A stretch of 64,000 bases of DNA. Origin: Chrysophaeum taylorii. Its lineage: Eukaryota > Sar > Pelagophyceae > Pelagomonadales > Pelagomonadaceae. Positions 1,902 through 62,998 of this stretch are shown piece after piece. Location: positions 1 to 64,000 of the forward strand of contig JAQMWT010000413.1 in assembly GCA_029834535.1 (NCBI GenBank), read 5' to 3'. Position 1 is the first letter of the stretch. Every line of letters begins with the position of its first letter. The notes under the pieces are model-generated. The model was not told the DNA's origin and did not search any database. It saw only the letters and a list, made by a program, of their open reading frames with translations. The position numbers were made by a program, and so were the translations under genes.

Positions 1902-1934
1902 ACGAACAAGCGTATCATCAGACTCAACAACAAC

Positions 1935-2391: not shown

Positions 2392-2412
2392 GGTGGTAAG
2401 ATTGGTCTGGTT

Positions 2413-5500: not shown

Positions 5501-6339
5501 CTACACGAGAAAGGTTAAGTGTATAGTGCTACATACCTCGGGACGCGCTAGACCATGATGATGAGCGTAGGCACAAATCAGAGGACTATTTGATTGTGTA
5601 GAAAGGAAGAAGAAAGGCAAGGAAGAGATCACGTTCTCAACGGACGGATAAGGGTTAGAGGCAGCAGATTTCTCTGCAATAAGATTGGCACGGTGCGTAT
5701 CACACCTGTCAGTGACTTCGGTGACTCTAGCTTGCTTCGACACGACTTGCGACGGAGCCGTCCCAGTCTTCGGCAACAACGAAGGCGCGGACGATGTCGC
5801 TGTCGAGGCGCGAAGGTCGTGGACAGCGGCGGGCCGCTTATTCGTGGCCCACACACACCCCGAGATATTCTTAGCTGACGACTTGCTCGCGAGCGTGCAC
5901 TTAACGCCATCGGGTGTGTGATTGCAATCAAGGACGATGTGCTCAGCCCATTGAGTTGGCCTGAACTTCTTGCCCGTGCGTGCGTGCGTTCTACATTCGA
6001 ACGTGCCGTCGCCCTTAGGCGTTGTGATCACGTAGTCCCTCACCGAACTCCTGGGCCGCTCCCCCTTGAACATGGTCACCACAACGGTCACCAGCGTGTG
6101 CAACTTCAACAGGAGGCAGCGAGCGTGCGGCACAGGAGAGAAATGGAAGAGAAAATGCTCGCTGACCACAGACGGACGTCCTGCAACGTTTTCTAAGCGT
6201 TTCGGTGTCAACCGGACGCGAGAAGATGTTTAAACCGGTAAAATCCAAGTTAAATCCGGTTTTAAACCGGTTTAAAACATGTACTAAAGTACTAAAACTA
6301 AACCCTGACCTTTGATACCGGTATATTAGGTTCGGTAGG
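5501..6339 (-). mobile_element. hAT-type element copy 1 (N-terminal transposase fragment)
   Basis: From about 5675 to 6339 this matches the second copy at about 13218-13885, with scattered substitutions. The shared minus-strand frame starts at the ATG of MFKG and carries a BED-like zinc-finger region followed by a Ser/Ala-rich linker. Compared with copy 2, the segment holding the first two zinc-ligand cysteines is missing (FECRTHARTG instead of FEWRCAARGCMHARSG), so the finger is probably dead. Downstream of the linker the similarity to copy 2 stops, and a different ~75-bp segment (about 5600-5675) follows that recurs at 6463-6540. The copy is rearranged and non-functional. Confidence 0.6.
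5600..5675. repeat. Short dispersed repeat, copy 1
   Basis: About 75 bp here (aaggaagagatcacgttctc onward) is repeated with minor differences at 6463-6540. On the minus strand both encode a related peptide ending PSVENxISSLP. The repeat lies on both sides of the LINE tail at 6340-6383. Confidence 0.6.
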
Positions 6340-6383
6340 GCTCCCATGCTCGGGAGAGGTCTGAAGTTAGTTAGTTAGTTAGT
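6340..6383 (+). mobile_element. LINE 3' end with (TTAG)n tail, very short copy
   Basis: The sequence ggctcccatgctcgggagag followed by gtctgaag and a TTAG array matches the 3' ends of the LINE copies at 10779-11227 (reverse orientation) and 59995-60103. It directly abuts the end of hAT copy 1, so it either inserted there or was truncated at that point. Confidence 0.6.
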
Positions 6384-6462
6384 AGCACTGGTGCATGAAG
6401 TCCCACGAATCAGGGTAAGGCTCAGGTAGGCGCGCGAGCCAAACATTGATCCTCCAAGCCGT

Positions 6463-6545
6463 AAGGAAGGACAAGGGTAGGGAAGAGATCGCGTTCTCAA
6501 CGGACGGAATAAGGGTAGGAGTTAGCAGATTTCTCTGCATTACGA
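6463..6545. repeat. Short dispersed repeat, copy 2
   Basis: This segment matches 5600-5675 over about 75 bp, including the shared core gcgttctcaacggacgga and gcagatttctctgca. Origin unknown. Confidence 0.6.
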
Positions 6546-6565
6546 ACACAGTTTTCACCACCAGG

Positions 6566-6571
<6 letters not shown>

Positions 6572-6636
<65 letters not shown>
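6572..6636. repeat. (CT)n microsatellite
   Basis: About 65 bp of uninterrupted CT dinucleotides. It creates artificial Arg-Glu or Ser-Leu open frames on both strands that should not be read as genes. Confidence 0.95.
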
Positions 6637-6641
<5 letters not shown>

Positions 6642-6808
6642 TTTCTCTCGAAGGTTGTGGGATCCCAAGCGCTTCCTGGTGGAGACCACACCGAGACAGA
6701 AAAAAGACGATTGAACGTCGCGCCTCCAGGACAACGCATATCCGATACGACGTCCGAGCGGCAACTCGCCAAGCCTCTATTTCGAGATCCGGCACCTCAA
6801 TCATCAAC

Positions 6809-7667
6809 ATGCCAACGAAAACCGCCGCAAGTCAAGATGAGGACGACTACGAGTCTCCTCCGTAGAAGCGACGCACGACGGCCTCTAACGCCTCAAAGAC
6901 TAGTCGCCTCGAAACAAGCATAAACGAGGAACTCAAGACCATCAAGGAGAACATGGTCACGAAAAGTTGAACTAAAACATCAACGACAAAAAGGTCACTG
7001 AAGATGGAATCAAGATCATCAAGGATGATATTGCACCCTCATATCATCATTCACAACGGCATTCGAGGACCTGCGAGCTGACCTCGACAACAAACTCACG
7101 ATCAAGATGGATGAGCAAAACTCCAAGATGGACGAGCTCCGAGCTGATTTTAGTGAACACAACGCCAGGTAAGACGAGTTATTCGCCGGTGTATGCGAGC
7201 AAAGCTCCAAGAACGACAAGCTCCGCGCCGATGTTAGTGAGCAAAACTCAAAACTTCCAGCTAACCTCAACAAACAACTCGATGATGATAAGCTGCACCA
7301 GAAGTGTTATCAGAGCAACAAAAGTATGTGGACGAGCAATTCCGCACTCATAAATGATATGAGTGCGGACAAACACTGAAAGACGCGCAATCCATCCGCG
7401 CTGATTTATGATCGAAGCCTGCTCTGAGCAGCAATCAGTCCGTGTTCAACAACAAATAAAAGAAGCAAGTGCTGATTCTAATAACGCCAGTGTTGTCGCC
7501 ATGCTCAACAGATCGGTGACCTTACTCCTAAGGACCCGCCATTTCCAAAAAGAGGCGGTTGATTGACGCCGCTCCGTCGTCTACCAACTATGTCGCACCC
7601 GAAGAAGTCAAATACGAAGAGCGACCGATGAGGCCTCCACGAGATTTCCGACCTCTGAGAGGTTAAC
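6809..7667 (+). pseudogene. Decayed coiled-coil protein gene (gag/ORF1-like)
   Basis: A plus-strand reading begins with ATG at 6809 and can be followed to 7667 across several in-frame stops and frame breaks. The N-terminus is acidic (DEDDYESPP). Then come Lys/Glu-rich heptads (INEELKTIKENMVTK) and three related units of roughly 20-26 residues with the core EQNSKMDELRAD. A basic C-terminal part (KRRLIDAAPSSTNYVAPEE onward) ends at TAA near 7667. The heptad repeats predict a coiled coil. Such a design is common in Gag or LINE ORF1 proteins, but no diagnostic domain remains. At least four lesions are present, so it is not functional. Confidence 0.5.
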
Positions 7668-12944: not shown

Positions 12945-13733
12945 TTAAACCCCGAGTTGAGCGCCGGTCTCGGTCTTGAAGCCGTCGAACCCAAGGGTTC
13001 GAGCGTAGTTGCCACTGGCGAACCACATCTTGTTGATGTTCTCTACAGTCTCTTCAAAAAGCAGTGGCGCCCACGTGCGCCAAAAGAAGGCCTCGGACTT
13101 GTTGGGCAAGTGCTTGACGAAGGCCACGTTGAGCGCCTTGATCACATCGATGAAGAAAATGATGTTGACGATGTTGAAAGGCAGAGCGCAACCAACCACG
13201 AATTTGGTGATCTTCTCGTTGATAAGATTGGCACGGCGCGTATCACACCTGTCAGTGACTTCGGTGACTCTAGCTTGCTTCGACACGACTTGCGACGGAG
13301 CCGTCCCAGTCTCAGGCAACAACGAAGGCGCGGACGATGTCGCTGTCGAGGCGCGAAGGTCGTGGACAGCGGCGAGCCGCTTATTCGTGGCCCACACACA
13401 CCCCGAGATATTCTTAGCTGACGACTTGCTCGCGAGCGTGCACTTAACGCCATCGGGTGTGTGATTGCAATCCAGGACGATGTGCTCAGCCCATTGAGCT
13501 GGCTTGAACTTTTTGCCCGAGCGTGCGTGCATGCAGCCGCGTGCCGCACATCTCCATTCGAACGTGCCGTCGCCCTTAGGCGTTGTGATCACGTCGTCGC
13601 TCACCGAACTCCTGGGCCGCCCCCCCTTGAACATGGTCACCACAACGGTCACCAGCGTGTGCAACTTCAACAGGAGGCAGCGAGCGTGTGGCACAGAAGA
13701 GAAATGGGAGAGAAAATGCTCCCTGACCATCAT
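12945..13733 (-). pseudogene. hAT transposase, N-terminal part
   Basis: This 262-codon minus-strand frame likely begins translation at the MFKGGRPRSS methionine (about 13634). A BED-type zinc finger is visible: Cys pair in EWRCAARGCMHARSG, then WAEHIVLDC giving His and Cys. After a Ser/Ala linker comes a DUF659-type transposase segment: NEKITKFVVGCALPFNIVN, then IDVIKALN and WAPLLFEETVENINK, ending GFDGFKTETG. It stops at about one third of normal transposase length, before the RNase H-like catalytic core and the C-terminal dimerisation region. It is therefore a truncated copy. Confidence 0.7.
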
Positions 13734-13885
13734 GTATCGTTTTCTGAGCGTTTCGGTGTCAACCGGACGCGAGAAGATGTTTAAACAACAAGTTAATCCG
13801 GTTTTAAACCGGTTTCAAACATGTACTAAAGTACTAAAACTAAACCCTAAGCTTTCATACCGGTATTTTAGGTACGGTACTTGGC
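12945..13885 (-). mobile_element. hAT-type element copy 2 (BED finger + DUF659 fragment)
   Basis: Homologous to copy 1 from about 13218 to 13885, but it extends further into the transposase. The upstream flank shared by both copies includes accggtttt and catgtactaaagtactaaaa segments and ends near 13885. Beyond that point the copies diverge, so this should be close to the element's 5' terminus. No clear terminal inverted repeat could be matched at the other side. Confidence 0.65.
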
Positions 13886-19940: not shown

Positions 19941-20276
19941 TGTAGTGGTTTTCTCAGATACCCGCCCCTCCTGGCCGGACCAGGGGCCTCAACAGCCCTT
20001 TCTCCCAACCCGAACTGCGGGTGAAACCACCACACGCCCGATCTCAGCGTAATACCTCACGCCATCACGAAATCGGACAACCAAATGAGGGTAATGGCAA
20101 GAAGACAGCAAGAAAGCAATACAAATGCCCGGCACGTTGGGTTCAGTGGAAGCGCAGGTGAAGGTGTCAAGATGACACCACCCCCCCCCCATAATTGCAA
20201 GGTCAGTACCAGTGCAACAATCAGGGTAAGTCAGGTGGCAGGCAGGCAAGTGGGGGAAATGGGCGTTACTGCCACA
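19941..20276 (-). repeat. Gypsy 3' LTR
   Basis: A 336-bp direct repeat of 26569-26902, starting tgtagtggtt and ending ttactgccaca in plus orientation. A few substitutions and a shorter C-run distinguish the two, so the insertion is not brand new. A third relative is at 27164-27483. Confidence 0.9.
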
Positions 20277-20291
20277 GGAGCCCCCTACTTG
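20277..20291 (-). other. Candidate polypurine tract of the gypsy element
   Basis: On the minus strand, AAGTAGGGGGCTCC directly precedes the 3' LTR. It is G-rich and in the right place for plus-strand priming, though not a pure purine run. Confidence 0.4.
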
Positions 20292-20532: not shown

Positions 20533-21405
20533 TCAGAGGCTTAGTAGGATCAAAACGCGAGGATCATCGCGCGGTCCCAAATCGGTATAGTAGTGAAGCG
20601 CAACTGTATCATTGTCGTGGTCATATTCTTTGTAGACTTCGGCAACATAGATGCGCTTCTTCCACGCGTTGGATCGTCCTTTCACCCTGAAAATCACGAA
20701 CTTACCATGTTTGAACCGGTCACGGTCCGAGGGTAAATGCAGAGGGGCTGAAGAAGTGTCGATGGTTGGCACTTTCAAAGGCACAATCTGTTGTACAGAT
20801 ACTACAACCGATTCAGCATCATCGTCGTTGACGTCTTGAATTTCATAAACGACGGGAGAGATCTTTCTAGTAACCATGTAAGGTCCGCGCCAAATGGGCC
20901 GTAGCTTGTGGCGTGTCTTAGGCACGAAACGCAGAACATAATCACCTGGGGGAAACTGGATGTCAATTTGGTGGGCATCATAGTTGAGTTTTTGACTCTC
21001 CTGTGCTTTCTGGTGAGCTCGAGTAACGAGACGACTGTAAAATTCAAACTTGTTCTTAAAGTCCACCAAAATCTGATGACGTGATTGCGATAGATCACGC
21101 TGTTCACTCAAAAGATTGTAATCAGGTGGTAACAGGGGTTGCTTGCCAGTACGCATCATGAAAGGTGAAATCTTCGTTCCCGGAATGTACATCGTATTGT
21201 ACATGAATGACACGTATGGGAGGAAATTCGACCAGTCTGGCTGACGCTGTTTGTTCAGCGATCGCAGCTCGCAAGAAGGCTTTGATGAATCGATTGACAC
21301 GCTCAGTATGATTACTCTGAGGGTGATACGGAAGGGTAGTACGATAACGTACGTTGAATTGACGAACAAACGTGCGAAATAACCTGTTCGCGAACTCATT
21401 TCCAT
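20533..21405 (-). pseudogene. Gypsy integrase C-terminal region
   Basis: A minus-strand frame continues the integrase after its catalytic core. WSNFLPYVSFMYNTMYIPGT is the end of the core, then comes a coiled linker, then a GPY-type module: PIWRGPYMVTRKISPVVYEI. The C-terminal ~70 residues (KFVIFRVKGRSNAWKKRIYV, AEVYKEY, ALHYYTDLG) may form a small chromo- or Tudor-like fold, but I cannot assign it. It is in a different frame from the core upstream, so a one-base break lies within 21122-21405. Confidence 0.75.
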
Positions 21406-21676
21406 TATCCGTGACTATGCACCGTGGGAGACATCCCTCAAGTAAAATCTTGTCCACAAACGCGTTCAAAATCGAATAGTCATGTTTTGTGTTGATCAGA
21501 GCTAATTTCAAGAAATGCGATGCTGCATCGTACATTGCGAGTATGTACGTGTACAGGTCAGCGCCTCGCAGAGGTCCAATCAAATCCATACCTAGGACAT
21601 AGCAATCTCCGACGCGATTCGGTTGACAGAGCAAGCCATGACGCCTAGGCATATGGTGGATCGAATCTTCTGGCAA
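21122..21676 (-). pseudogene. Gypsy integrase catalytic core
   Basis: The DDE triad is visible: Asp in VLGMDLIGPL, Asp in IVTDNGNEFANRLF, and Glu in YHPQSNHTERVNRFIK. The spacing between the second Asp and the Glu (about 35) is that of retroviral-type integrases, which join the cDNA to target DNA. The HHCC finger preceding it is in another frame (22638-21592), so a frameshift lies in the ~85-bp overlap. Confidence 0.85.
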
Positions 21677-22638
21677 ATAATGCAGGCATTGACGAACTCA
21701 TTAACTGATGATGAGGCGTTTGGCCACCAATACCGTTCTAAGATTTGATTCGCTGTGGAGTCTCGTCCTACATGGCCTCCGAACAATCCTCGGTGATGCA
21801 TGGCGATCACACGCTTTCGCATAGACTGAGGGACCACAATAAGACGTTGAGAATCTGAATCATCGACCTTATACAACACGTTGTCATCAACCTCATATGG
21901 TACGGATGACTGCTCGTCTTGATCTTTCTGTTCAGAGTCGAGCTTTCGTCTGATGCGCTTGCATGTTTCATCCTCAGCTTGTTCTTTCGCTATCTCATCG
22001 AGAGTGATCTCATCCTCCGCTTGATCCGCAAAAGGGAGACGTTCGACGGAGTCAACTGGCTCAGACTCGTACGAGAATTGAGGCGGTTGTACGTTCTGTC
22101 GCGTACTAACTGCTACCATAGCTGCGGTGGGTCCGCTGTCCGTCAGCATAGGCATCGTCACCGAAGAGAAGGTGAAGCAAGCTGTGCCAGGGACATCGGT
22201 GGGGATTTCTTGGAAAATCAAAAAAGCTTCATTGATCGGTTCCCCGTCTTCATCTTTCTCGATCAATTTGTCGATAGGGTTGCGCGACAGACAATCCGGA
22301 ATACGCATGCCAGGGGAGCTTCCAGGCTTGTATCCGAGCTCCCGGTCGAACGCAGCAAGCCGCATAGCCCATCGTGCTAACTGTCCAGACGTATGATTCG
22401 AATCCCGCAGAAACGTTAAATTACGATGATCCGTCTCTAACTTCGTCTGATGACCTTCGATATAAAATCGGAAATTTTCGAGAGCAGAGAGTACTGCGAG
22501 GAGTTCCAAGCGCCGAGGATCATACTTCCTCATCGACTTAGGCACGGTTCGACTCCAGTACTCGATAACTCTCTCTTCGATTCTTTCTCTTCCATCGTCG
22601 TCAGCGACTGGTACTTTTCGAAATAGGTAAGCACCCAA
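21592..22638 (-). pseudogene. Gypsy RNase H and integrase zinc finger
   Basis: The frame opens just upstream with the RNase H signature IRTDASAHGLGAYLF (catalytic Asp), followed by RRLELLAVLSALENFRFYI with the Glu, and LETDHRNLTFL. After a hydrophilic linker comes the integrase HHCC finger: MHHRGLFGGHVGRDST, then CIICQK. RNase H removes the RNA template, and the finger assists integrase multimerisation. The RT upstream is in another frame; the break lies at a T4 run around 22670. Confidence 0.85.
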
Positions 22639-23828
22639 CCCATGCGCGGAAGCATCAGTTCGAATGTAAAAGGCAGCGAGTAATCAGGATGATAGACGCC
22701 CTTCGAAGTGACAATAGCCTCGATGATGGCATCCCAAGCTTCCTGACACTCTTTCGTCCACTTGAATTTCACGTCCGGCAACGTCAGTTGTCTTAATGGC
22801 TCTGCAACTTTCGCAAAATTCCTTACATAACGCCGGCAAAAACTCCCCATTCCAAGGAAAGATCGCACTTGCTTCTTAGGGTCAGCACCCGACAAAGTGC
22901 CAGGAATTGGCATGTGTCTGATGGCTTCTAAAGACCTTGGTGATGGAAGAAGTCCGTTCGGGGTAGATAAATGACCCAAAAACTCAATGACTTCTTGCAT
23001 AAAATGAATCTTCTTGATCTTGGCGCTGTACCCCTTCAAGGCGAGATGGGGAATAACTTGCACAAGGCACTGCAAGTGATTCTTTGTATCTGCGTGACCG
23101 GCGAGAATATCGTCGATATATGCCACGAGATCACGATATAGCCATTTCGACAAGTCAGTGTTCAACTGCTTGCAAAACAAACTTCCGGCTGGTTTGACTC
23201 CCAAAGGTAGACGCATGTAGCTGTACGCTCCCAGAGGACTAGTGAAGGTGACCACATCTTGTGCATCTAGCGACAATCGTAAATTGTGATAGCCCCAACG
23301 AATATCCAAACTGGAACGACAAAACTTGTCGATGAGAAACATCAACGCGTCAGCCATGCTCACACTCGGCCAGCTATCATCCTTGAGCAATGCATTGAGG
23401 CGCCGTAGGTCGACAGCTGCTCTGTAAGCATTGGAAGTGCCAGGCTCAGCACCTTTCTTAGGCAACATCAAAATAGGGAAACCCCATCGAGAATTCGCGG
23501 GACGAATAACTCCGTCTCGGGTCCATGCTTCAATCTGCATCCGCAAACATTCAATCTTTTCTTTCGACAACCGATATGGCGAGAGTTTGACGGGAGTCGG
23601 GTTCTCTTCTTTGAACCGGAGCGTCACTTCAGGTGAATCAACAGGTCTCATCACATCATCGAAAAATGCCCACGAATACGAGATTAAATGCTTCATCATC
23701 AGCTTCTCGTCATCATCTAAAGCAGGATGCTCTGTAATACCCAACTCAGTCATCACCTCTTCGACCTGCGCGACGGTCGGAGGGATGACCTGCATGCTCT
23801 CCTGACCCGCTAAATGAGGAGGCATCAC
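22530..23828 (-). CDS. Gypsy reverse transcriptase
   Basis: This 432-codon frame overlaps the previous gene's stop (TGATG). RT motifs occur in order: SPYRLSKEKIECLRMQIEAW, then GFPILMLPKK, YRAAVDLRRLN, the first catalytic Asp in SSLDIRWGYHNLRL (about 175), FTSPLGAYSYMRLPLGVKPA, and the polymerase box YIDD at about 237-240. FLGMGSFCRRYVRNFA and KFKWTKECQEAWDAI mark the connection region. All catalytic Asp residues are present. The last ~45 codons read out of frame relative to RNase H. The enzyme copies element RNA into cDNA. Confidence 0.9.
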   Translation of the reverse strand: MMPPHLAGQESMQVIPPTVAQVEEVMTELGITEHPALDDDEKLMMKHLISYSWAFFDDVMRPVDSPEVTLRFKEENPTPVKLSPYRLSKEKIECLRMQIEAWTRDGVIRPANSRWGFPILMLPKKGAEPGTSNAYRAAVDLRRLNALLKDDSWPSVSMADALMFLIDKFCRSSLDIRWGYHNLRLSLDAQDVVTFTSPLGAYSYMRLPLGVKPAGSLFCKQLNTDLSKWLYRDLVAYIDDILAGHADTKNHLQCLVQVIPHLALKGYSAKIKKIHFMQEVIEFLGHLSTPNGLLPSPRSLEAIRHMPIPGTLSGADPKKQVRSFLGMGSFCRRYVRNFAKVAEPLRQLTLPDVKFKWTKECQEAWDAIIEAIVTSKGVYHPDYSLPFTFELMLPRMGWVLTYFEKYQSLTTMEEKESKRELSSTGVEPCLSR

Positions 23829-25546
23829 CGGTAAAGGTTAACCATGTTCGTCGTGAGGCGCGTCAGCCCACGGAACGTCGTACTTATTGAAATGCGCTGG
23901 TCGCTCTTTCGCGGTGCCTTCTTCTTCAGCAGTTGCGGAGGGCTGGTTGTCGACTTGGTTGCTCTGCATAACAGCAGTGGCGACGGTGCCCCCTGCAAAA
24001 GATGAAGCCGTCCCAGGCGATGTAACTGAAGGTGGTGGCGGGGTGGTGGGGCAGCAGCTGATGGTGCAGGACTCGCAGGAGAATAGAGTTCATCGGGCGC
24101 AATCCATGACACACTTCGAGTGGCAGGGTCGAGCGTTGGAATGCGCGACTCTACAGCAAAAGGTGAAAACCGTAGAATATGGTGATCAGGTTGGGCTAGC
24201 GTAGTCGTCGCAATATTCCGCAACTTACCCAAATTTCGAAGTGAAGGGTCAAACGAATTGTGCACTGCTAGCGCAATCCGCGTCATAGTCGCGGGTGGCA
24301 CCATACTGCCAAGCATCTTCATAGCTGCTGTCTCTGAAACTGTCGCACCCCATTGCCACGTAGCAGGAACGGTCATAATTTCCTGGTGCATCTGCAACGT
24401 GAGTGGACGGGTGTTCGAGAAATGAGGTCCTAGGTGGAGCTTATTGCGCGTCACCGTGAAGGCAGGGCCGATAGCCGGGCGCGTAGATGAGAAACTGTTC
24501 ACTATAATGAGCGGGTGACCACCTGTAAATCCCAACGCTGGCCCAAAACGGTCCCTTAAATTCGGTGGTACACGCGATAATAAAGGCAGGTTCAAGCGAA
24601 CATTGCACGCAAGTAGGCGCGTGCGCGAGCACAGCAACTCTGGTGTGATACTATAGAAATCGACAATACGCGGCACATAAAATTGGTGATGCACAAAAGG
24701 GATCACTGATGGTTCCTGCTCGAGCGTCCATCGTCCAATCACATAAGGTGCGTTGCGGAAGTGACGCAGGACCCAAGAAGTAATAGTAGCGCCCTTGCGT
24801 GCGTCCCTGTAGTGCAAATTGGCAGTCGATCCATAGATACACGGCGGACTGGCCTGAAAATAAGAATGCTTCCAAAAATCTGAGTGTAAATACGACAACA
24901 CCAAGTCGTATGTACGACGATGAGATTTCCCCAGCTCTTGCAAAACATAGGGAATCTTCGGAAAATTGAGCTCGAAGGTGGCTCGGGCTTGAGAACAAGC
25001 ATCCAAAGCCAGGGCGGTGCGAAATGAACTTCCATATAGCACATTGCATCGCCGGATACCCAACGTTGATCCTCCAGCGCCGGCAAAGTAGACGATGACA
25101 AAGGTGTAGGTGATGGGTATCCAAACCAAGGAGGCGTGCTTAGATAGCACCTCCTTAGCTGTCGCCTCCATCTCCATTTCTAGTGTTTTTTTCACTTCTT
25201 CATCTGGAGGTGGCTGAGGAGGAGGTTTGTCACTCAAGACATCCTCCTCGACTTCATCGTCGTCAACAGCAGCCGTAAGAGTGGCATGACACATGTCATC
25301 AGTGGCTTCTAGCTGCATGTTGACACATCCTTCATGCGGCATGATCTCGCCTTCGACCACCGGGACTTCGGGGTCGATACCAATGGGTTCGTCACCAATG
25401 TGCTCCACAGCCACATGAACTTCGTTGGGCTTGTCAGCGCAATACGATGAATAGGAGCCAGGTACAAGGCGGAGATCTTGGAGGAGTGACCGATGAGGTC
25501 GGAATACGTAACCCTTTTCCAGCGGCACATCGCACTCCATCTCCAA
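23825..25546 (-). CDS. DNA (cytosine-5) methyltransferase domain of the gypsy element
   Basis: This 573-codon frame has methyltransferase motifs in canonical order. They are motif I YFAGAGGSTLG (153-163), a motif-II-like Asp near 182 and the motif IV loop ASPPCIYGS with catalytic Cys at 236. Then come a motif VI equivalent, LEQEPSV (Glu ~276), motif VIII SRTRLLA (R308/R310), motif IX RPLT (380-383) and motif X KMLGSMVPPA (~410-419). PCI replaces the usual PCQ, and EQEP the usual ENV. The N-terminal ~140 residues resemble the protease-to-RT linker of gypsy elements. After about residue 475 a one-base shift (near 24040) leads to the likely native C-terminus, ending HDEHG and TAA. The protein would methylate cytosine in DNA; its target site is unknown. 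Confidence 0.8.
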   Translation of the reverse strand: MEMECDVPLEKGYVFRPHRSLLQDLRLVPGSYSSYCADKPNEVHVAVEHIGDEPIGIDPEVPVVEGEIMPHEGCVNMQLEATDDMCHATLTAAVDDDEVEEDVLSDKPPPQPPPDEEVKKTLEMEMEATAKEVLSKHASLVWIPITYTFVIVYFAGAGGSTLGIRRCNVLYGSSFRTALALDACSQARATFELNFPKIPYVLQELGKSHRRTYDLVLSYLHSDFWKHSYFQASPPCIYGSTANLHYRDARKGATITSWVLRHFRNAPYVIGRWTLEQEPSVIPFVHHQFYVPRIVDFYSITPELLCSRTRLLACNVRLNLPLLSRVPPNLRDRFGPALGFTGGHPLIIVNSFSSTRPAIGPAFTVTRNKLHLGPHFSNTRPLTLQMHQEIMTVPATWQWGATVSETAAMKMLGSMVPPATMTRIALAVHNSFDPSLRNLGKLRNIATTTLAQPDHHILRFSPFAVESRIPTLDPATRSVSWIAPDELYSPASPAPSAAAPPPRHHLQLHRLGRLHLLQGAPSPLLLCRATKSTTSPPQLLKKKAPRKSDQRISISTTFRGLTRLTTNMVNLYR

Positions 25547-25555
25547 GAAGTATGG

Positions 25556-25960
25556 TTAGCTTGGAAGAAGAAATCGAGTACTCGTCACGTACGCGAAATG
25601 AGGGATGATATCTTCCTCGTCTGCAGGGCATGTAAGTTGGTCTTCAGCTTTTTCAGCAGTCTGATCACCGGGAGGAACATGATGGTGACTCGCTCTGATA
25701 CGAATAGACCGCAATAGACTGTCATAACTCCACGGTTTACCAACTGGCGTCCAAGTTTGGATATTTCCGTATTGCACAGCAAGCTTAGCTGTCGGGAACA
25801 TCTGCACTACATGCGGAGTCGCATCGAATGCATCATTGTAAAGGACAATTCCATGCTGGTCTTGTGGCGAGGCGGAAGTCCGATTCTTGAGAACTCCAAT
25901 GGTCACTTCAGAACGCCGAAAAATAGCTGTCTCTGTCGCATAATCCAAAATCGTACCCAA
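25556..25960 (-). CDS. Gypsy upstream ORF, unrecognised
   Basis: A 134-codon frame in phase with the methyltransferase frame and separated from it by a single TAA (25556-25558). It contains HGIVLYNDAFDATPHVVQMF and KLAVQYGNIQTWTPV, which could be a small beta-barrel, and an acidic C-terminus. Neighbouring frames up to 26175 are also partly open, so the original ORF may have started further upstream. It occupies the gag/protease position, but no CCHC knuckle or D-S/T-G motif is visible. Confidence 0.4.
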   Translation of the reverse strand: MGTILDYATETAIFRRSEVTIGVLKNRTSASPQDQHGIVLYNDAFDATPHVVQMFPTAKLAVQYGNIQTWTPVGKPWSYDSLLRSIRIRASHHHVPPGDQTAEKAEDQLTCPADEEDIIPHFAYVTSTRFLLPS

Positions 25961-26549
25961 GAGTCGTAATTCTTGTGTACTGAACGGAGTTCTTCCAATA
26001 GACGTAAATGGAGTCCCTGCACTGACTGAATCGTTGCAGATGCTCCTGTGCGTCTCGAAACCACTGCGGTCGTTCTGTCATTGGCCTCTCTGCCATGACC
26101 GCGATTTGCCCGGATAATAAGATTAATCCGAACGCTCACAACTCGTTTGTTGCACTCTTTTTCGTCAGACGACAATTGCCGGCAGCCGTCTGACTGCGCG
26201 CTGTACCGGTGCGCTGGTCTTATGGAAGTATTAGCCTTGTGCGTGAAGACTATGGGCGGTCTTCCCGGTGCTGTCGCTCGCCGTCAGGGAGGTGGTCTGC
26301 CTCGCGCGAGCTAAGTTAGGGCTTACTCTTTCTTTGCCTCGTAAAAAGGTCTTACGATGTTTGCCTCAATGAGTCGTAGTGACTCCGCTCCCCGTTCGAT
26401 CCGAATCACGTAAAATGAACCCCGCGGCGGTACCCGTGATCCTCTGGATCTTCACCCACAAATGCGTCGGCTTCGCATTCACTCGACCGTTACGAACCGA
26501 CTCGCCGCCGAAAAACAGGAGATCGATAGTCCGGGAGTTGGACTATCGA

Positions 26550-26567
26550 TTCCCGTTTCTGAGACCA
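26550..26567 (-). other. Gypsy primer-binding site
   Basis: One base inside the 5' LTR the minus strand reads TGGTCTCAGAAACGGGAA. It begins with TGG, complementary to a tRNA CCA end, and the plus strand reads like a tRNA 3' half (cgattcccg...ctgagacca). The tRNA species is not identified. Confidence 0.7.
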
Positions 26568-26568
26568 C

Positions 26569-26902
26569 TGTAGTGGTTTTCTCAGATACCCGCCCCTCCT
26601 GGCCGGACCAGGGGCCTCAACAACCCTCTCTCCCAACCCGAACCGCGGGTGAAACCACCACACGCCCGATCTCAGCGTAATATCTCGCGCCATCACGAAA
26701 TCGGACAATCAAATGAGGGTAATAGCAAGAAGACAGCAAGAAAGCAATACAAATGCCCGGTACATTGGGTCAAGCGCAGGTGAAGGTGTCAAGATGACAC
26801 CACCCCCCCCCCCCATAATTGCAAGGTCAGTACCAGAGCAACAATCAGGGTAAGTCAGGTGGCAGGCAGGCGAGAGTGGGGGAAATGGGCGTTACTGCCA
26901 CA
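26569..26902 (-). repeat. Gypsy 5' LTR
   Basis: A 334-bp direct repeat of 19941-20276. It ends at 26902, where an ACTTC array begins. It contains a C11 run (about 26803-26813), where the two copies differ in length. Confidence 0.9.
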
Positions 26903-27000: not shown

Positions 27001-27163
27001 CATTCTGTCTCCTAGGTATTCACTTCACATTCACATTCAACTCACCGAGTTGACGAAAGAAAAAGAAAGAAAGTGCAGGCCAGAGCGCCCACTTTGTCTC
27101 AAATCTCAAACCCCGCAAAGTTTCCTGCCAGCTGCGCCGGTCTCTCGCAAACACTTATTGTTT

Positions 27164-27483
27164 TGTAGTGGTTTCCTCTCAGATACCCGCCCCTCTTGGC
27201 CGGACCAGAGGCCTCAACAACCCTTCTCCCAACCCGAACCGCGGGTGAAACCACCACACGCCCGATCTCACGCCATCTGACAATCGGACAATCATATGAG
27301 GGTAATAGCAAGAAGACAGCAAGAAAACAACACGAATGCCCGGTACATTGTGTTCAGTGGAAGCGCAGGTGATGGTGTCAAGATGACACCCCCCCCATAA
27401 TTGCAAGGTGAGTACCACAGGGCAACAATCAGGGTAAGCCAGGTGGCAGTCAGGCAAGTGGGGTGATGGGCGTTACTGCCACA
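27164..27483 (-). repeat. Solo LTR of the gypsy family
   Basis: About 320 bp, clearly homologous along its length to the two gypsy LTRs, with small indels. No internal sequence accompanies it, so it is probably a product of LTR-LTR recombination. A target duplication is not obvious. Confidence 0.85.
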
Positions 27484-27511
27484 CAGTTTTCGAACTGTTC
27501 AGCTTGAAACG

Positions 27512-27607
27512 TGTGAGGAAGCTATGACACTTACCCCTGCACCACGTATCCAGTATCCTTACGTCTTTCTCTTATCGCTAGTCTAACGCCTCATTCCATT
27601 CGTAACA
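27512..27607 (+). repeat. Copia 5' LTR (96 bp)
   Basis: Starts tgtgaggaagctatgac, ends attcgtaaca. It is followed by tggtaagcaggtgctcg, the likely primer-binding region. Very short for an autonomous LTR element. Confidence 0.95.
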
Positions 27608-27617
27608 TGGTAAGCAG

Positions 27618-28655
27618 GTGCTCGTCGACGACGACCTGGGTCATGGAGATCGTCGCTCAGTCTGCAATTGCTTCACTGCATTCCGGGTGTGCAAAAATAT
27701 CGATGAACTTGAGTCTTTCTTAACAAGTTCATCACTGGTGTTCAAGTTGCTCGGCATCATCAAGATTTCCCTGACACACATGCATTGCAATTGCTTCAGA
27801 CGAAAATCCCCGACTCGCTTGTCTAAGGATCTCATACTTGATCCTAAACTGCACATATGATGGTTTCGTTGATCGCCTCCACAGTAAGGTTTTGATTATC
27901 TTCAGACCAAGTCTGCGCGTGTCCATGCTACGTTCCGTGAATGTCCCCGTCATCGTGAACGTTCCAACTTTTACAGTCGTCATCCTTCCGATAAGGCGCC
28001 ATCAACCAGTAACTCTCAACAACGTTCTAGCCCCGCCCCCTTTTCGATCATTTCCGTAATCCTTCATCTTCACGTGGTTTCCATCGCAGCGCCCGCCGCT
28101 AGATCGTCGGTGGTATTCCTGGCCATCACCAGAAAGATGGTCATAAGCGCCAGCGCTATTTGCTCTCACAAGCTACCGCCCGCCCTCGGCATCAACACCA
28201 ATACCCACGTCGGTCAAATTCCCAATACCCACCTCGGTCCAATCCCCAATACCCACCTAGGCCCCATCCACCCTTCTACCAACACCATCTTTCCGCACCC
28301 ATTCCACCCTTGCCTCCATCTCAATCCTCTCCGCCGCTCCTTGCGTTGCCACCCTCCACCACACCCTCTGTCCCGCCTTCCACCGCTGTCACCCTTCCTG
28401 ACCCATCCCTTTCTGCACCTACCTACCCGTCTTTCAATTTCCATCTTCTTTCCATCTCCTCCATTCACCAAGTCCTTTCCTCCACAAAGCCCTTACCGCT
28501 CTGCTCACCGCCGTGAGCGCGACCTACCGCACAGCAACAACGCCTCGTTGTCTACGATACAGGTGCCAACGTCAATCTCTTCAAATTCCCCTGCTGGTTT
28601 CACTCACCTCGACAACACTCAGCAACACCATCACAGCTTCAATTGGTCCTCTTGA
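27618..28655 (+). pseudogene. Copia gag/protease region, frame-broken
   Basis: Several overlapping frames cover this interval, including a Pro/Ser/Thr-rich stretch with three units of TNTH/IPNTHLGP-like repeats (28190-28265). The retropepsin motif RLVVYDTGANVNLF, with the D-T-G triad, lies at about 28541-28582. The frame changes at least twice around it. No CCHC knuckle could be fixed. The protease would have cut the Copia polyprotein. Confidence 0.65.
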
Positions 28656-29260
28656 CAATCGTGGTCTTCCTTCTCCTGCACCCACTCTTTCCGCCCCTCA
28701 TGGTATACATGTCGCGTTCCCGCTTACCCTCATCTCTCCTGGCCTTGGTGACGACAAACGGATTCTTTCGGATCATGCCCTTGAACAAGTTGGTTACGAT
28801 TGCCACACCATTCAGGCCGTTGGCCCTGCTTATCCGCAACGTATTTTACGTCACCGCCAAAAGCATCACGTTATCCCCCTGCTTCGTCGCTGTGGTCTTC
28901 TTTTGATCGTCTGTTGGATCGGCAATACGACCGCTGCGCCCTACGCGGACTACGTTTCACCTTTTGTGGCATTTTCTTCTTGCCCCCGTGTCCATGACCC
29001 TTGTGCGTTTCCCGCTGTGTCTCAACGCACTCAACTTACCTTCGACCTTTGGCATGCTCGTCTTGGTCATTATAGTCCTCCCTATCTTCGGCGTTTGTCT
29101 TCTCTTGCTGTTGGCGCACCGTTTTTCCCGAGCTCCGCGTCGCTTTTTTTTTGTCCTGCTTGTGCTCTCGGTAAAATGCATGCTGCGCATGTTGGCCAAC
29201 GTAAAGCTCATGCTTCCGCTTCCACTTCGCCTCGCATGCTGCGCATGTTGGCCAACGTAA
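28513..29260 (+). pseudogene. Copia GAG-pre-integrase region
   Basis: The frame contains LTFDLWHARLGHYSPPYLRR and FFCPACALGKMHAAHVGQRK, that is the His-His/Cys-Cys finger preceding Copia integrase. It stays in this frame until the tandem duplication at about 29178-29289, after which the integrase core is found in the frame shifted by two. Confidence 0.8.
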
Positions 29261-29289
29261 AGCTCATGCTTCCGCGTCCACTTTGCCTC
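29178..29289 (+). repeat. 56-bp tandem duplication inside Copia pol
   Basis: The segment with gcgcatgttggccaacgtaa occurs twice, 56 bp apart (gttggcc at 29191 and 29247). As 56 is not a multiple of three, it moves the reading frame by exactly the shift seen between the pre-integrase and integrase frames. Confidence 0.9.
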
Positions 29290-30431
29290 CTTCCTCTGAG
29301 CCTTTGTCTCGTCCACGTGCCGTTGCGCCCTACCTTATTATCCACGCCGATCTCATGTTTGCCGGCGTCCCATCCTTCATATATCAAGATCGCGCGATCC
29401 TCACGTTTGTCGATGATTATACGCGCCGCCGCACGCGTTACTTTGCTCCACGACACGATGCCCTTACGAACGCTCGTCAACTCGAACTTTTTCTGTCTAC
29501 CGTGGTTCGCCCATTCGGATATCGCATTGCCCTCATCTACACCGATCGTGACCGCTCTCTTATGGGCCAATTCGAAACCTTCTGTCTGGGCAACAATATT
29601 GCGCTTAAGCGCGCTCCGGCAGCACAGTCCAAAACTTCACAGGCGCACGCTTTTTCCGGTGTTGTGGAACGCTCTCATCGCGCAACCGCTGATATTACTC
29701 GCACTCTTTTGGTACATGCGCACCGTCCACCTGATTTTTGGCGTTGGGCCATGGAAACGGCTGACTTCATCTCTGAGCGTATGCCAAATGCCTCTAATCC
29801 TGGATATATGACGCCATATTAAATGCTACATGAAACTCTACCGCGTGTCGATTTTCTTCGTGTTTGGGGCTGTCCTGCTGCAATTCTTACTGGCGACAAA
29901 TGGCCTACCAAAGCTATAACCGGTATCTTCATTGGGTTTCCCTCTGCAGGCCCTGGATATCGCATATTGCTTCAACGCCCCACAGGTCCTGTCATCCACA
30001 CCTCGATTGATGTTGTTTTTGACGAAAATTTCGCTCTGCGTAAGTCACTGTCTACTCAACCCATTCCTCCGTCTCTAGTGGATTCTCGTTTTCCTGACTT
30101 GTTTTATTGCGACCCTCGTCTATCTTCGGCCGTGGCCCCCATGTCTTCTGTTTTTGATGCTCCGGAGCCGGCCTTATCGGGACTGATCACCCCTGAAACA
30201 ACTCAACCGTCACTGAATACACTGTTACCGGACAATACGAAAGTGCACCATTACGTCGTGCCAAACGGGGCCGACCGCGCAAAGTCGACCAACGCGCGTT
30301 ACAACAACCAACAAACTTTTTTACGGGCCATTCTGTTTCCTCCTGTCACGATGTTGATTCTGTTTCCTCTGTCGCTTCTGTTTCCTCCTGTAACTCTTTG
30401 TATGTCTCTTCTGTTAGCTTTCGTTTGTTAG
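29283..30431 (+). pseudogene. Copia integrase
   Basis: The DDE core is visible: YLIIHADLMF, then FVDDYTRR, Asp in ALIYTDRDRSL, and Glu in GVVERSHRATAD. A TAA at 29820-29822 interrupts it in the conserved stretch that reads MTPY-stop-MLHETLPRVDFLRVWGC; Copia proteins usually have a Glu there (PYEML), so one base change would explain it. The same frame continues to a T6 run (30318-30323), where it leaves the RT frame. Confidence 0.85.
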
Positions 30432-32134
30432 TTCATTATGTCTTCCTTCCCCTTTGTTTAGCTAACACCCTTGTTGATCCCCATGCACACGTTTATTACT
30501 CTGCTTCCGAAGAAATGTCTCAGTATTCAGACCCTGACGAAACTACTATTACTTCAACCCATTTACGTGAAGCTTTAGCTCAGACCAATCCTGAGCGTCC
30601 TGGCTGGTTGCAAGCCATCGCCAAAGAATATCACTCCCTTGGTCAGCTTGGTTGCTGGGATGTTGTTCGGCTTCCTTCGACTTTTTCTGGCAACATCTGC
30701 ACCCTCAAGTGGATCCACCGCAAAAAGTATGACTCTGGCCGCTTCAAATCGTACAAGGCTCGCCTCGTTGTCCGCGGTTTCACCCAGATTCACGGCATTG
30801 ATTATCATGACACCTACTATCCGGTTGCCAACATCGTCACGATCCGTTTCTCTCTAACCTTTGTCGCTGTTCATGACTGGGATTTGCACAAGTTGGATGT
30901 CAGCTCCGCCTTTATTCAAGCTCCCATTGACGAAGACATCTATGTCTGGCCACCCGAAGGCTATGCTCCTCGCCAACCCACCGATGGTTCCAAAATCGTT
31001 TACAAGCTCCGTCGCTCTTGGTATGGTTGCATACAAGCTTGTCGCAATTGGTGGCTTTATTTGGAACGCTTCCTTCTCAATGATTGTGGCTTCGTCCGCG
31101 GATCTGGTGACACTTGCCATTACAAGCTCGTGCTCAATTCTACCGTGGTCCTCCGTCTTGTTTTGGTCGTCGATGATCTTCTTGTAGCGCACCCTCCTCA
31201 CTGCATTGGCCATTACCAAGCCTTTTTCCTCCGTTTCCGCGCTTTCACTGACGTCAATGAACTCGATCTCACCTCTTACGTTGGTCTTCGCATTACGCGT
31301 GATCGCCCTCGGAGAACCCTCACTCTTGACCAATCCCATGCTATCCGCGAAATCCTTACCGAACATCGCTTCATCAACAGTAAACCCGAACTCACTCCCG
31401 CTCCCAAAGGTCTTCATTTTTCTGGGGCTGATTGTCCTACTCCTGGTTCTCCAGATCACATTTTCATGGCACGCATCCCTTTTCGCCGTATTGTTGGCTG
31501 TGTCCTCTTCATCTCCATCATGACTCGCCCTGATATCACTTGGTCCGTCAATCAGTGTGCGCGTTTTTCCCACAATCCTAGTAAACCCCACTGGCACGCT
31601 TTATCCCACACTCTGCGTTATCTCAACGGTTCTCAGGATCTTGCCCTTATTCTTGGTCGCGATTCTACCCTTCATCTCTGTGGTTATTCCGACTCCAGCT
31701 GGGCCGACGACCCTGATGACCGCCACTCTACAACTGGTTTTTGTTTTCTCCTTGCTGGCTCTATGATAGCCTACTGCTCCCGCTCGCAGTACTTACTTGC
31801 TCGCTCTTCTTTTGAAGCTGAATTGCTCGCTCTTTACGCTGCTACTGCTGCGCTCTCTTGGCTTCTCAAACTTTTTGATGACTTTGATCTCCCTCGTCAC
31901 ACGGTCCCAATGTATGTTGATAATAGCACCACCGTCACCCAAGTTCGTCTTCAATGTCTCACACGGCGCACCCGCCATATAGACATTCGCTTTTACAGTA
32001 CCGCCGAATATCATCGCAACCACATCATTGATCTCAAACACATACCCCGCCTTCACAATCTTAGCGACATTTTCACCCGCAGTACGGAAGCTCCTTCCTT
32101 CCTCCGGCTTCGTGCTCTTTACCTCACTTCGTGA
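30398..32134 (+). CDS. Copia reverse transcriptase-RNase H
   Basis: This 578-codon frame has the Copia RT order: GWLQAIAKEYHSLGQLGCWD, KWIHRKKYDSGRFKSYKARL, GIDYHDTYYPVANI, KLDVSSAFIQAPIDEDIYV, and the polymerase box VLVVDDLLVA, where Val replaces the usual Tyr of YVDD. RNase H follows: GYSDSSWADDPDDRHSTTGF, SFEAELLAL and KHIPRLHNLSDIFTR. The frame likely starts further upstream, since it stays open to the T6 run near 30320. It is the longest intact part of the element. Confidence 0.9.
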   Translation: MYVSSVSFRLLVHYVFLPLCLANTLVDPHAHVYYSASEEMSQYSDPDETTITSTHLREALAQTNPERPGWLQAIAKEYHSLGQLGCWDVVRLPSTFSGNICTLKWIHRKKYDSGRFKSYKARLVVRGFTQIHGIDYHDTYYPVANIVTIRFSLTFVAVHDWDLHKLDVSSAFIQAPIDEDIYVWPPEGYAPRQPTDGSKIVYKLRRSWYGCIQACRNWWLYLERFLLNDCGFVRGSGDTCHYKLVLNSTVVLRLVLVVDDLLVAHPPHCIGHYQAFFLRFRAFTDVNELDLTSYVGLRITRDRPRRTLTLDQSHAIREILTEHRFINSKPELTPAPKGLHFSGADCPTPGSPDHIFMARIPFRRIVGCVLFISIMTRPDITWSVNQCARFSHNPSKPHWHALSHTLRYLNGSQDLALILGRDSTLHLCGYSDSSWADDPDDRHSTTGFCFLLAGSMIAYCSRSQYLLARSSFEAELLALYAATAALSWLLKLFDDFDLPRHTVPMYVDNSTTVTQVRLQCLTRRTRHIDIRFYSTAEYHRNHIIDLKHIPRLHNLSDIFTRSTEAPSFLRLRALYLTS

Positions 32135-32219
32135 TCTTCGCCCTGATCTCTGCTGTATTTCTTTCTTGCCACAATGCCTCTGTGACGTCTTCCTCAAAGC
32201 TTCTCCTCTGTGAGCGTCT

Positions 32220-32312
32220 CACTTACCCCTTTTTCCTTTTCTTTCTTTTTTCCAGCACCTGTGTAAGGACCTCGCTTACCCCTTTTTCCTTTTCTTTCTT
32301 TTCCAGCACCTG
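32220..32312 (+). repeat. Duplicated pyrimidine-rich segment before the Copia 3' LTR
   Basis: The stretch cttaccccttttt, cttttctttc and ccagcacctgtgt appears twice in tandem before the LTR. A similar stretch precedes the LTR of the second Copia copy (51720-51760), so it is a family feature. Confidence 0.7.
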
Positions 32313-32408
32313 TGTGAGGAAGCTATGACACTTACCCCTGCACCACGTATCCAGTATCCTTACGTCTTTCTCTTATCGCTAGTCTAACGCCTCATTCCAT
32401 TCGTAACA
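32313..32408 (+). repeat. Copia 3' LTR (96 bp)
   Basis: Identical by eye to 27512-27607 and followed by the target duplication AAACG. Confidence 0.95.
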
Positions 32409-60171: not shown

Positions 60172-60480
60172 ATGACAGTAATTGATGACGAATGGATTGT
60201 AGTACGCCCCGCGATTTCGGACGACGAACTCGCAATAATACCCTTGATCGGCGGCGTCAGTCGTTTGCGGAACTATCGAGGTAGAATTGTTTCTGCGCCG
60301 ACGACGGTGATGGCTCTCAGTTTGAACGAGAACCAGATGTGGTGCCCATTTAGAGGAGTGCCGTCGACCAAAAAGTATGATCGACGGCACGAAGCGAGTG
60401 CTGCAGCCGAAATGGAAGATTTGCGATCTGAAGCAGCCTCCGCCCGTTCGTGCTTCAAAGGCGTCGTTGCCGATCAGTAG
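60172..60480 (+). CDS. Hypothetical short ORF
   Basis: A 102-codon frame begins at ATG 60172 (MTVIDDEWIVVRPAI) and ends at TAG 60478-60480. The C-terminal half is Ala/Glu-rich and could be helical. No domain is recognised, and it is short enough to be chance or an exon. Confidence 0.25.
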   Translation: MTVIDDEWIVVRPAISDDELAIIPLIGGVSRLRNYRGRIVSAPTTVMALSLNENQMWCPFRGVPSTKKYDRRHEASAAAEMEDLRSEAASARSCFKGVVADQ

Positions 60481-62998
60481 ACCGCAATCGCCACTACCGG
60501 AGCGAGTGAAGCGTTAATTTACAACGCCTGCTAGCGCTCATGCCGCTTGCACTCAAAGGATCGAACCTAAACGGACGTACTACATTCCGGCATATCTTTC
60601 TTTCTTTCTCACCCGTTGAATAATGGTCAAGCCTTCGTCGCGGCTACGTCTTCGTGCATCGAGCAACTGGGAGTTCAACTGTGAGTAGGACGTGGGGACC
60701 ACGCGCGAAAAGAGTGCACCGTCGTCGGCAATAGTTGCAGTCTCTTCGCTGGAAGATACCCCGACGACTGCGTTTCAGGAACGCCTAATAATGGAATGAG
60801 ATGGCGTGCGATGCCAAGAAGAATTTTTTGAGGTTTTTCCAACGATCGCCGACGAGGATCACGATCATTAAACCCCGACGTCGGTGGTGAATCCGCTTAG
60901 TTTGTGATTTCGGTCAGGTGCCATCTCGCTCGCTCGCTCAATTGAAAGATGTGCCCAGTCATGTTCTTATCAAAGCCTCGGAGCCTTTTCGCGACGATTG
61001 GAAAAGAGGCGACACCTTTTTCAGGAACGACTGAAACTGTTGAAAAAGTACTTTCAGTGCCGCCGTACTCAGAAGAATATTCTCTACGCCCGCAAGAAAT
61101 AATTTATGCCTCCTGTTACGTATTACTCGCCATGTTCTTTAATGGAGTTTGTGGCGGAACTCTCGGACTACAGCGGTATTAGGAGCTTTATGGCATTTGT
61201 TTCTTTTCGGCGCTATCGACGCTTCAGAGACCGCCAGCAAGCTCCAGTTTTTTTTCTTCGGACGTCCCAGTTGTGCAGCACACTCTCTGCGGACGCTATG
61301 ATGCAGCTCTTCGCTTGGTGAACAACTATCTTATTCGCGAGGAGTGGGCGCCTGCTATGTTCGTAGTACTGCCGTGTTCGTTGGGAGGCCACCAACCGCG
61401 AGTTAATTCAGCGCTGTGCAATTTGACCGCACGAGACGTCTGTAAAGGAGTCACCTCGACCAAGCGTACAATCGAGATGCTCCGCAAGTCAGGGGTTGGT
61501 CGCGGGTTGATTGAACAAGAACCATCTATTTGCGCGCATCGCTCCACATTATCCTTTTGTATACGTGATATTTTACGCGATAACGCCTGATCTGATGCGT
61601 CGTCGTCGTCGCAAACGCTCGTTGATAGCGAGCCATTCTCGCAACATCCAGGAGCGCGCGGAAAAAACTGTCTCAACATTCGACAGGCTCTTGCTGCGTG
61701 ATTGATATATCCCGACGAACCGCATCTCATACAGGTCAATAATTTTGGCTCTTCGCGTGCTGCAACCGATGCCTGGTACACACAGTAACGAGAACTGCGC
61801 CCGTGCGCGTCGGAAAGCACCGTCCAGACGTCAAACCTTTGTATTCGAATGGAAAAAACAACGGCGACTACGCGTACAACGTCTGGGGACTACGCGTGGC
61901 TTGATGACAACACTACTGAACAATACGCGCATTTGACTTCTGTCATCCCGCCGTCTTCCGTGGCCATTTTTGCAAGGGAATTCCACAAAATTCTTCCGCC
62001 CGCCCTATCAAGAGCATAAAGAGGCTCTACACCCAAGCCTTTATTTGACGCGAACAATCGCGTATGATCGCGTGGGTTCCACTGGTGGACGACTCGCAGG
62101 ATACGACCAAGTTGCTTTCTCCCGAACTACCATTCATATCGCCCAACATGAGTGCGCAGGGGACGTCGCATGCTTCTGTTTTGCAATCACCCCCACCAAA
62201 CCGCACAATGCGAAGAACTCGAATCTTCGAGCGCTATGACTCCTACATTTCCGGCAATGCCAACAGAGGGGGTGGTAATTACCATTACCGGAAATTAATG
62301 GTAAACTCCATTAGCCTAGTAATTACCAGTAACCAGAGGGTGGAGATTTTTGAGATGCGTGGCGGGTGCGGTCAAAAGTGTTCGAAATGATGTCTCGTGA
62401 GGGTCCGTGGGCGCGGCCCACACAAGGAGGCCCCGTTGGTGTCGGTATTTACGTCCATGCGCCTGGTGTCGGTGTTGGAGCCAGTGTTGGTGCGGGGTTG
62501 GGATCGACAGCGCAATGCACGTGCGGTCGAACCTAGATGTCATCGACCTCGTCGAGGTCATCGTCGGTGCGGCGTCGAGAATTCAAGAAAGGCGGTCGTT
62601 TTCGTCATCAGTAGAAGGGCAGCCTCGCTGTGGATGAGCGACACTCCTCTTCAGATAACATCAGCGTCCGGCCGCGACCGTCGGGCATTGAGGGTCGTCG
62701 ACGTAGTCGTCGAGTTTGAGTCCTTGTTGCCGAGGCGCGGTGTTGTCCCATTGAACGAAGTAATTGTAAACTCGCGCTCTTGGCTTGTGCTTATGAATTT
62801 TGCCGAACAACAATCACTGCTCTCTCCTGAAGCTCACGGAGGAGGTATCTTCGAAGCACGGCAGCACGTAGAGAGGCTCGCGTTCGTCTTCGTTCTAGGA
62901 AGGTAGCCGGTTTCTCGACAAACGTGAAAAAAAACGGCGGCGGGATTTCAAACTCTTCGAAGTACAGGAGACCGTCTCTGCCGTCTTCATCTTCGCCG
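60481..62998. other. Long stretch without a recognised gene
   Basis: About 2.5 kb with only short frames on either strand. A plus-strand frame at 61273-61590 (ALRLVNNYLIREEWAPAMFV) is the most protein-like but cannot be assigned. Near 62270-62335 there are direct repeats of taattaccattacc / taattaccagtaacc with an inverted ccattaccggaaattaatgg core. The region may be intergenic or decayed. Confidence 0.35.

Follow-up and report, generated by a model that had tools for sequence, protein, structure and literature searches.

The question raised by this locus is whether a cytosine methyltransferase frame lying between two long terminal repeats (LTRs) is a working part of the retrotransposon that surrounds it, and, if so, for what the element might use it. 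The window, that is the whole stretch of DNA analysed, comprises 64,000 nucleotides of the pelagophyte alga Chrysophaeum taylorii (assembly GCA_029834535.1, contig JAQMWT010000413.1, positions 1 to 64,000). An original prediction had placed in it, at 23825..25546, a 573-codon frame with C5-methyltransferase motifs within a Ty3/gypsy element. The frame was found there, on the minus strand and with its last ~70 residues frameshifted, and the presence of a methyltransferase within a Ty3/gypsy element was borne out by profile matches, at least 76 loci of the same family, at least 127 matches of a sister family, a fixed spacing to the reverse transcriptase (RT) and purifying selection. These analyses revealed that the window copy is a defective Ty3/gypsy LTR retrotransposon, and that the methyltransferase domain is a regular polyprotein part between protease and RT in this gypsy lineage.

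The genome searched amounted to 70.8 Mb in 697 contigs. The family of the window copy is designated A/B (subfamilies A and B, with locus L024 alongside) and its sister gypsy family C. Searching with the 573-amino acid (aa) frame gave at least 90 matches (76 of 1098 candidates scored), which merged into at least 76 loci, and 53 of the 90 listed A/B matches were free of stops inside. Other copies with the same order, a search for which had been proposed in the original prediction, were found as open frames in L062, L061 and L072. In L062, a single frame of 2070 aa contains gag, protease, methyltransferase, RT and the start of RNase H, and in L061 a frame of 1660 aa runs from gag through the methyltransferase into the start of RT; gag and protease were named by position and by eye, with a gag profile value of 0.078 in L061, under the cut-off, and no match to protease profiles in the copies tested. 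A genome search with the RT gave 123 matches, comprising 93 of the A/B type and 30 at 59-61% identity, the latter revealing family C. In L072, which belongs to this sister family, one frame of at least 3041 aa encodes an N-terminal region at the gag position (no gag profile match), protease, methyltransferase, RT (4.1e-13), RNase H (1e-25) and integrase (zinc-binding domain 2.3e-18, core 8.1e-12). The family C enzyme had at least 127 genome matches (127 of 1022 candidates scored), 104 of them stop-free inside, and its domain shares 41% identity with that of A/B across 299 aa, with FxGxGGS, SPPC, EQE, RxR and VPP retained. The spacing of enzyme and RT was likewise fixed. A listed methyltransferase lies upstream of 41 of the 93 A/B RT matches, 40 of them within 114-462 nt and one at 3884 nt, and the remaining 52 have none among the 76 of 1098 candidates scored; in family C the enzyme lies at 501-507 nt for 15 of the 30 RT matches (33 of the 127 enzyme places compared).

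The ratio of nonsynonymous to synonymous substitution rates (dN/dS) showed that the domain is under purifying selection, similar to RT. Values for the domain were 0.08-0.12 between A or L024 and B copies, 0.11-0.13 between A copies and L024, and 0.15 (0.03-0.33) for L002 vs L005, both of subfamily A, as compared to 0.10 for the RT of L061 vs L062, 0.16-0.31 for those gag/protease windows that allowed a calculation (saturation affected one of the seven) and 0.37 for the stretch directly after the domain. Among the parts compared (gag/protease, the domain, the stretch after it and RT), the methyltransferase domain is one of the most constrained. Less informative were L062 vs L065 (1.0, 0.36-4.74), with few changes, and L062 vs L072 (0.24), which is near saturation; L002 vs L072 and the RT of L062 vs L072 were saturated.

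Within the window, the element and one decayed relative consist of the following features:

26569..26902, minus strand: 5' LTR of 334 bp, TG...CA, direct repeat with 19941-20276
26546..26567, minus strand: candidate primer-binding site TGGTCTCAGAAACGGGAATCGA, starting with TGG one base inside the 5' LTR
25547..25977, minus strand: protease-region remnant, aligning to the pre-methyltransferase region of L061 (base 2475 onward) and L062
23825..25546 (read 25546→23825), minus strand: 573-aa open frame with the methyltransferase domain, the register being lost over its final ~70 residues
24158..25132, minus strand: C5-methyltransferase-type domain of 325 aa with motifs I, II, IV, VI, VIII, IX and X (PF00145, phrog_116, weak TIGR00675 dcm, alignments A1 and A2)
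22530..23828, minus strand: reverse transcriptase (RVT_1 7.1e-14)
21592..22638, minus strand: RNase H and integrase zinc-binding domain (RT_RNaseH 2.1e-19, Integrase_H2C2 2.8e-18)
20533..21676, minus strand: core and C-terminal domain of the integrase, spread over two frames that overlap (rve 3.1e-8, Integrase_p58_C 9e-7)
20277..20290, minus strand: polypurine-type tract AAGTAGGGGGCTCC adjoining the 3' LTR (sequence inspection)
19941..20276, minus strand: 3' LTR of 336 bp, direct repeat with 26569-26902
60419..62192, plus strand: decayed relative, protease-methyltransferase stretch nearest to the family C type (three tblastn pieces to the L072 polyprotein: 60589-62022, 33%, E 4e-49; 62007-62192, 40%; 60419-60826, 29%, E 5e-4)

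The window copy thus has paired TG..CA LTRs, a primer-binding site and a polypurine tract, and both this copy and L072 show the Ty3/gypsy order RT-RNase H-integrase. Both LTRs begin with TGTGG and end with CCACTACA, and are 93.5% identical with gaps counted (Kimura two-parameter distance 0.031 over 331 aligned sites). The complement of the primer site resembles a tRNA 3' end by inspection, and its 21-mer occurs 123 times in the genome at no more than one mismatch, as compared to 0 for the reversed control. The region at 25547..25977 is retropepsin-like by position and by a DGMAD motif recognized by eye only, with no Pfam match. The plus strand of the 573-aa stretch is full of stops. GAAGTGAAG is present at both outer flanks of the element, but lies within a GAAGT repeat tract, so that the length of a target-site duplication is not readable. 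A third LTR-like copy, 84-86% identical, was observed at 27161-27483, ~260 bp beyond the 5' LTR, and is probably the remnant of an older insertion.

The defects of the window copy were located by comparison with other copies. In contig C421, the counterparts of window positions 25977 and 25990 are bases 164974 and 162177, so that 12 bp in the window stand against 2.8 kb in C421, indicating that ~2.8 kb (gag and the protease start) were deleted from the window copy. The methyltransferase frame is in register with most other copies up to about residue 500 and the remainder lies in another frame there, which identifies the last ~70 residues and the stop as a frameshift product; in addition, pol is divided over several frames. 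When 40 primer-site regions were compared with the listed methyltransferase loci, the listed enzyme match began 3.2-3.7 kb away for 14 and 0.4-1.0 kb away for seven (the window among them), and 19 had none of the listed matches within 7 kb downstream, these distances varying with where each match begins. The six further short-distance copies (0.8-1.0 kb) are on contigs C116, C356, C359, C373, C506 and C692. Short gag-less forms seem to recur, and are perhaps non-autonomous derivatives.

The identity of the domain as a cytosine-C5-methyltransferase type is supported by profiles and motifs. The PF00145 match expected by the original prediction was obtained with the 573-aa frame at residues 365-427, where motifs IX and X lie (31.2 bits against a cut-off of 22, E 2e-7), and with the family C enzyme (26.2 bits, cut-off 22; L072 6.7e-6), both matches spanning part of the profile. 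The domain alone (24158-25132) matched PHROG family 116, DNA methyltransferase (4.9e-9; related copy L062, 3.3e-12), and, over the motif I-II part, NCBIfam dcm (TIGR00675) at 0.0014 and 18.3 bits, far under the curated cut-off of 100.65. Motif numbers I-X follow the usual assignment, and motifs I, IX and X are of the Dcm type. Alignment A2, of seven copies from three subfamilies, showed FxGxGGS (I), SPPC (IV), EQE (VI), RxR (VIII) and VPP (X) to be invariant. Alignment A1, of A and B copies, showed no change in PPC, in the Glu of motif VI or in RxR in any of its 16 rows, and the catalytic Cys of PPC, the motif VI Glu and the motif VIII Arg were thus kept in all rows of both alignments (16/16 and 7/7). 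The A1 copies were picked for a stop-free, full-length domain, which biases them toward conserved residues; left out were copies with stops or shifted frames, the stop-free L020, L001 (a duplicate of the window) and L061 (a duplicate of L002). L066, with an altered motif X, was included in A1 and is absent from A2. A single-sequence AlphaFold2 model had a mean pLDDT of 33.6 and gave no usable fold.

Relatives of the enzyme were also sought outside this genome. The protein database contained none at E≤0.001 for the window frame or at E≤0.1 for A1 and the family C domain, and phage records contained none at 1e-5. At E≤1, 14 phage records matched L062 over no more than 30% of the query (best 1e-3) and one matched L072; among the 12 listed for L062, eight are annotated as methyltransferase or methylase and four as hypothetical protein. 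Viral contigs gave no match for A1, A2 or A3 (the alignment of the Copia enzyme described below), and prokaryote genome contigs gave none for A2. Among solved structures (E≤10), the A2 profile matched two chains, 8yf3 (0.0066) and 3g7u (0.5), both named cytosine-specific methyltransferase, and DNMT3 was absent. The first is CmoX, a phage cytosine C5-carboxymethyltransferase (PMC12783734), which is also the best match of A3 (0.044), both matches being weak. CmoX resembles the gypsy enzymes in SPPC and in motif X, GRMVPP as compared to GSMVPP. Its Arg350 contacts the carboxyl group of Cx-SAM (PMC12783734), and the aligned residue is Ser in the gypsy families (Ser276 in 7/7 A2 rows) and Asn in the Copia family, as read by eye; carboxymethylation is therefore not supported.

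A second methyltransferase, dissimilar to the gypsy enzyme, is encoded by a Copia family of this genome, where it likewise appears to follow the protease. The PF00145 genome search gave at least 57 matches above the cut-off (123 of 474 candidates scored; intron-split genes could escape), two of which are host-type genes: a DNMT2-like protein of 360 aa (best structure DNMT2, 3.9e-39) and a DNMT5-like protein matching 7r76 (3e-143), whose chain is named Rad8 there and which we take to be fungal DNMT5. Of the other 55 listed matches, 28 (L033-L060) were read and all 28 encode LPCQ and VEN motifs, one other enzyme type, as does L069. In L063 (C96:61500-69500, 1597-7455), this enzyme lies in a frame of 1952 aa, after a protease-like SLIDGGAS stretch recognized by eye and before an integrase (rve 0.006, under the cut-off, or 0.0015 when that piece was searched by itself) and an RT of Copia type (RVT_2 1.6e-38). 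Its dN/dS was 0.11-0.15 (6 pairs, 4 copies). No profile similarity was detected between the gypsy and Copia enzymes, which favours separate captures as far as these shallow profiles go. The Copia enzyme has ~300 residues between motifs VIII and IX with no Pfam match. The window itself contains a Copia-type element at 27511-32408, whose terminal repeats of 97 bp show 100% identity; it matched L063 in RT alone (31%), the methyltransferase being unmatched.

Retrotransposon-borne methyltransferases as such are known, and the precedents named in the original prediction, from dinoflagellates and a charophyte, do exist. De Mendoza et al. (2018; PMC5890265) described KnitGypsy-Dnmt3 in the charophyte Klebsormidium nitens, and enzymes of DIRS and LINE elements in Symbiodinium. 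KnitGypsy-Dnmt3 shares with the present family a Gypsy-type element, a cytosine methyltransferase within the Pol polyprotein, retained key residues and purifying selection (Ka/Ks < 0.2, as compared to dN/dS of about 0.1 here). By its description, it is set apart by a DNMT3-related enzyme, a charophyte host and a DIRS-like repeat arrangement, whereas the present element has two ordinary direct LTRs, no DNMT3-like match and a stramenopile host. The SymbioDIRS-Dnmt3 and SymbioLINE-Dnmt elements are similar in carrying many methyltransferases, more than the host genes, and the SymbioLINE enzymes form an orphan lineage, like the present enzyme (PMC5890265); those elements are DIRS and LINE of a dinoflagellate, whereas the present ones are LTR Gypsy and Copia. 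These cases are restated in PMC12344493, which names LTR Copia and DIRS elements for the DNMT3 members and lists orphan DNMTs, and a 2019 opinion paper names in passing methylase-encoding Ty3/Gypsy and DIRS elements in stramenopiles (PMC6338049). Ty3/gypsy elements of orchids that carry an m6A RNA demethylase domain have likewise captured a nucleic-acid-modification enzyme, of opposite chemistry and acting on RNA adenine (PMC9289625). The literature searched, which left most subscription papers and all bioRxiv preprints outside its scope, yielded no account of such elements in pelagophytes or of the present enzyme, and the C. taylorii NIES-1699 genome paper (PMC10366177) contains no word beginning with 'transpos'. 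What is new here is the different host, an enzyme without a DNMT3-like match and the presence in two LTR superfamilies at once.

As to function, we lean somewhat towards the domain methylating the complementary DNA (cDNA) of the element itself, in a lineage that encodes it as a regular polyprotein part. A methyltransferase inside the polyprotein is made with RT and probably packaged beside it, so that cDNA (or RNA) would be its nearest substrate. The domain would be cut free by the protease of the element, would travel with RT in the virus-like particle and would methylate cytosines in new cDNA, such that the new copy would enter the nucleus already marked. DNMT5 is a maintenance enzyme in fungi, and the DNMT5 of the host could propagate these marks, so that the element would be tolerated, would escape foreign-DNA sensing or would stay quiet in a heritable manner from one burst to the next. 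The marking of cDNA is supported by the SymbioDIRS-Dnmt3 enzymes, which established de novo CG methylation in yeast (PMC5890265). Several observations weigh against such a role. In the corresponding yeast test of KnitGypsy-Dnmt3, methylation was not seen and the result was called inconclusive (PMC5890265). The window frame (E≤1) and A1 (E≤10) had no match among solved structures. Motifs I, IV, VI (Glu), VIII (RxR) and X (GSMVPP) of the original prediction were seen, but motif VI is EQE, and motif X is GSMVPP or ASVVPP and not GNAVPP; the canonical forms are ENV and GNxVPP, so that activity is not assured, and of the 16 A1 copies L022 departs from the others in motif I and L066 in motif X. Between A copies, transition decay was only slightly higher at CG (12.4%) than at GC (10.1%), CC (9.8%) and GG (10.8%), as computed from 27 of 30 loci (without L026, L027 and L030) and from the 318 of 351 pairs that were of sufficient length, the pairs not being independent. 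The observed/expected CpG ratio within elements was 1.03-1.34, and together these values show no strong signature of CG sites having been densely and heritably methylated. The oddities of motifs VI and X and the weak CpG decay make both activity and a CG target tentative.

Other explanations were set against cDNA methylation. That a methyltransferase gene from the host or a bacterium landed by chance between the LTRs of a single copy would agree with the degraded window copy and its broken frames, but many loci with the same order and spacing, single open frames and selection refute it, and its probability is negligible. Modification of RNA, either the genomic RNA of the element or its tRNA primer, with a benefit for packaging or priming, is unlikely yet merits attention: the element has a tRNA-type primer site, DNMT2 and DNMT6 of the same superfamily are RNA-associated (PMC12344493), and RNA methylation was discussed for SymbioLINE (PMC5890265). 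The sole profile match to a host enzyme was to the DNMT2-like protein (E 0.0047, probability 7.5%), with none to the DNMT5-like one; this match is weak and based on general motifs, and the best solved structure, 8yf3 (E 0.0066), is a phage DNA enzyme. A folded, non-catalytic methyltransferase, retained in Pol for its structure or for binding nucleic acid, would agree with the changes of N to Q in motif VI and of N to S in motif X relative to the canonical motifs, but PPC, the motif VI Glu and RxR are intact in all 16 stop-free copies and in the 41%-identical sister family, which makes it distinctly unlikely. We consider it improbable that the enzyme acts on the host, disturbing or flooding its methylation and thereby diluting silencing marks or blocking readers. 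The many element copies as compared to two detected host-type genes, and the host epigenome effects discussed for Symbiodinium (PMC5890265), speak for such an action, whereas the polyprotein position suggests packaging with cDNA and CpG decay between copies is not strong.

Their built-in enzymes may enable the elements to set, or to interfere with, the chemical marks by which cells silence them. The findings extend the groups detailed in 2018, charophytes and dinoflagellates, to a stramenopile alga with a different enzyme type, and the same architecture in Gypsy and Copia families of one genome suggests repeated selection for a cytosine-modifying enzyme carried with RT. On the host side only DNMT5 and the tRNA-type DNMT2 were detected, which makes it testable whether transposons provide the de novo methylation that the host may lack. 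That Gypsy and Copia elements, rather than the host, supply de novo cytosine methylation, maintained by host DNMT5 after two captures in the post-protease slot, is quite unlikely; if true, the methylation system of this genome would be partly parasite-encoded. The question of de novo methylation can be addressed in practice, as there are nearly identical copies and nanopore reads already exist (PMC10366177).

Elsewhere in the window, a direct repeat of ~660 bp, 90% identical, was found at 5679-6337 and 13222-13879, and a peroxiredoxin-type gene lies on the plus strand at 57135-57806 (AhpC-TSA 3e-30).

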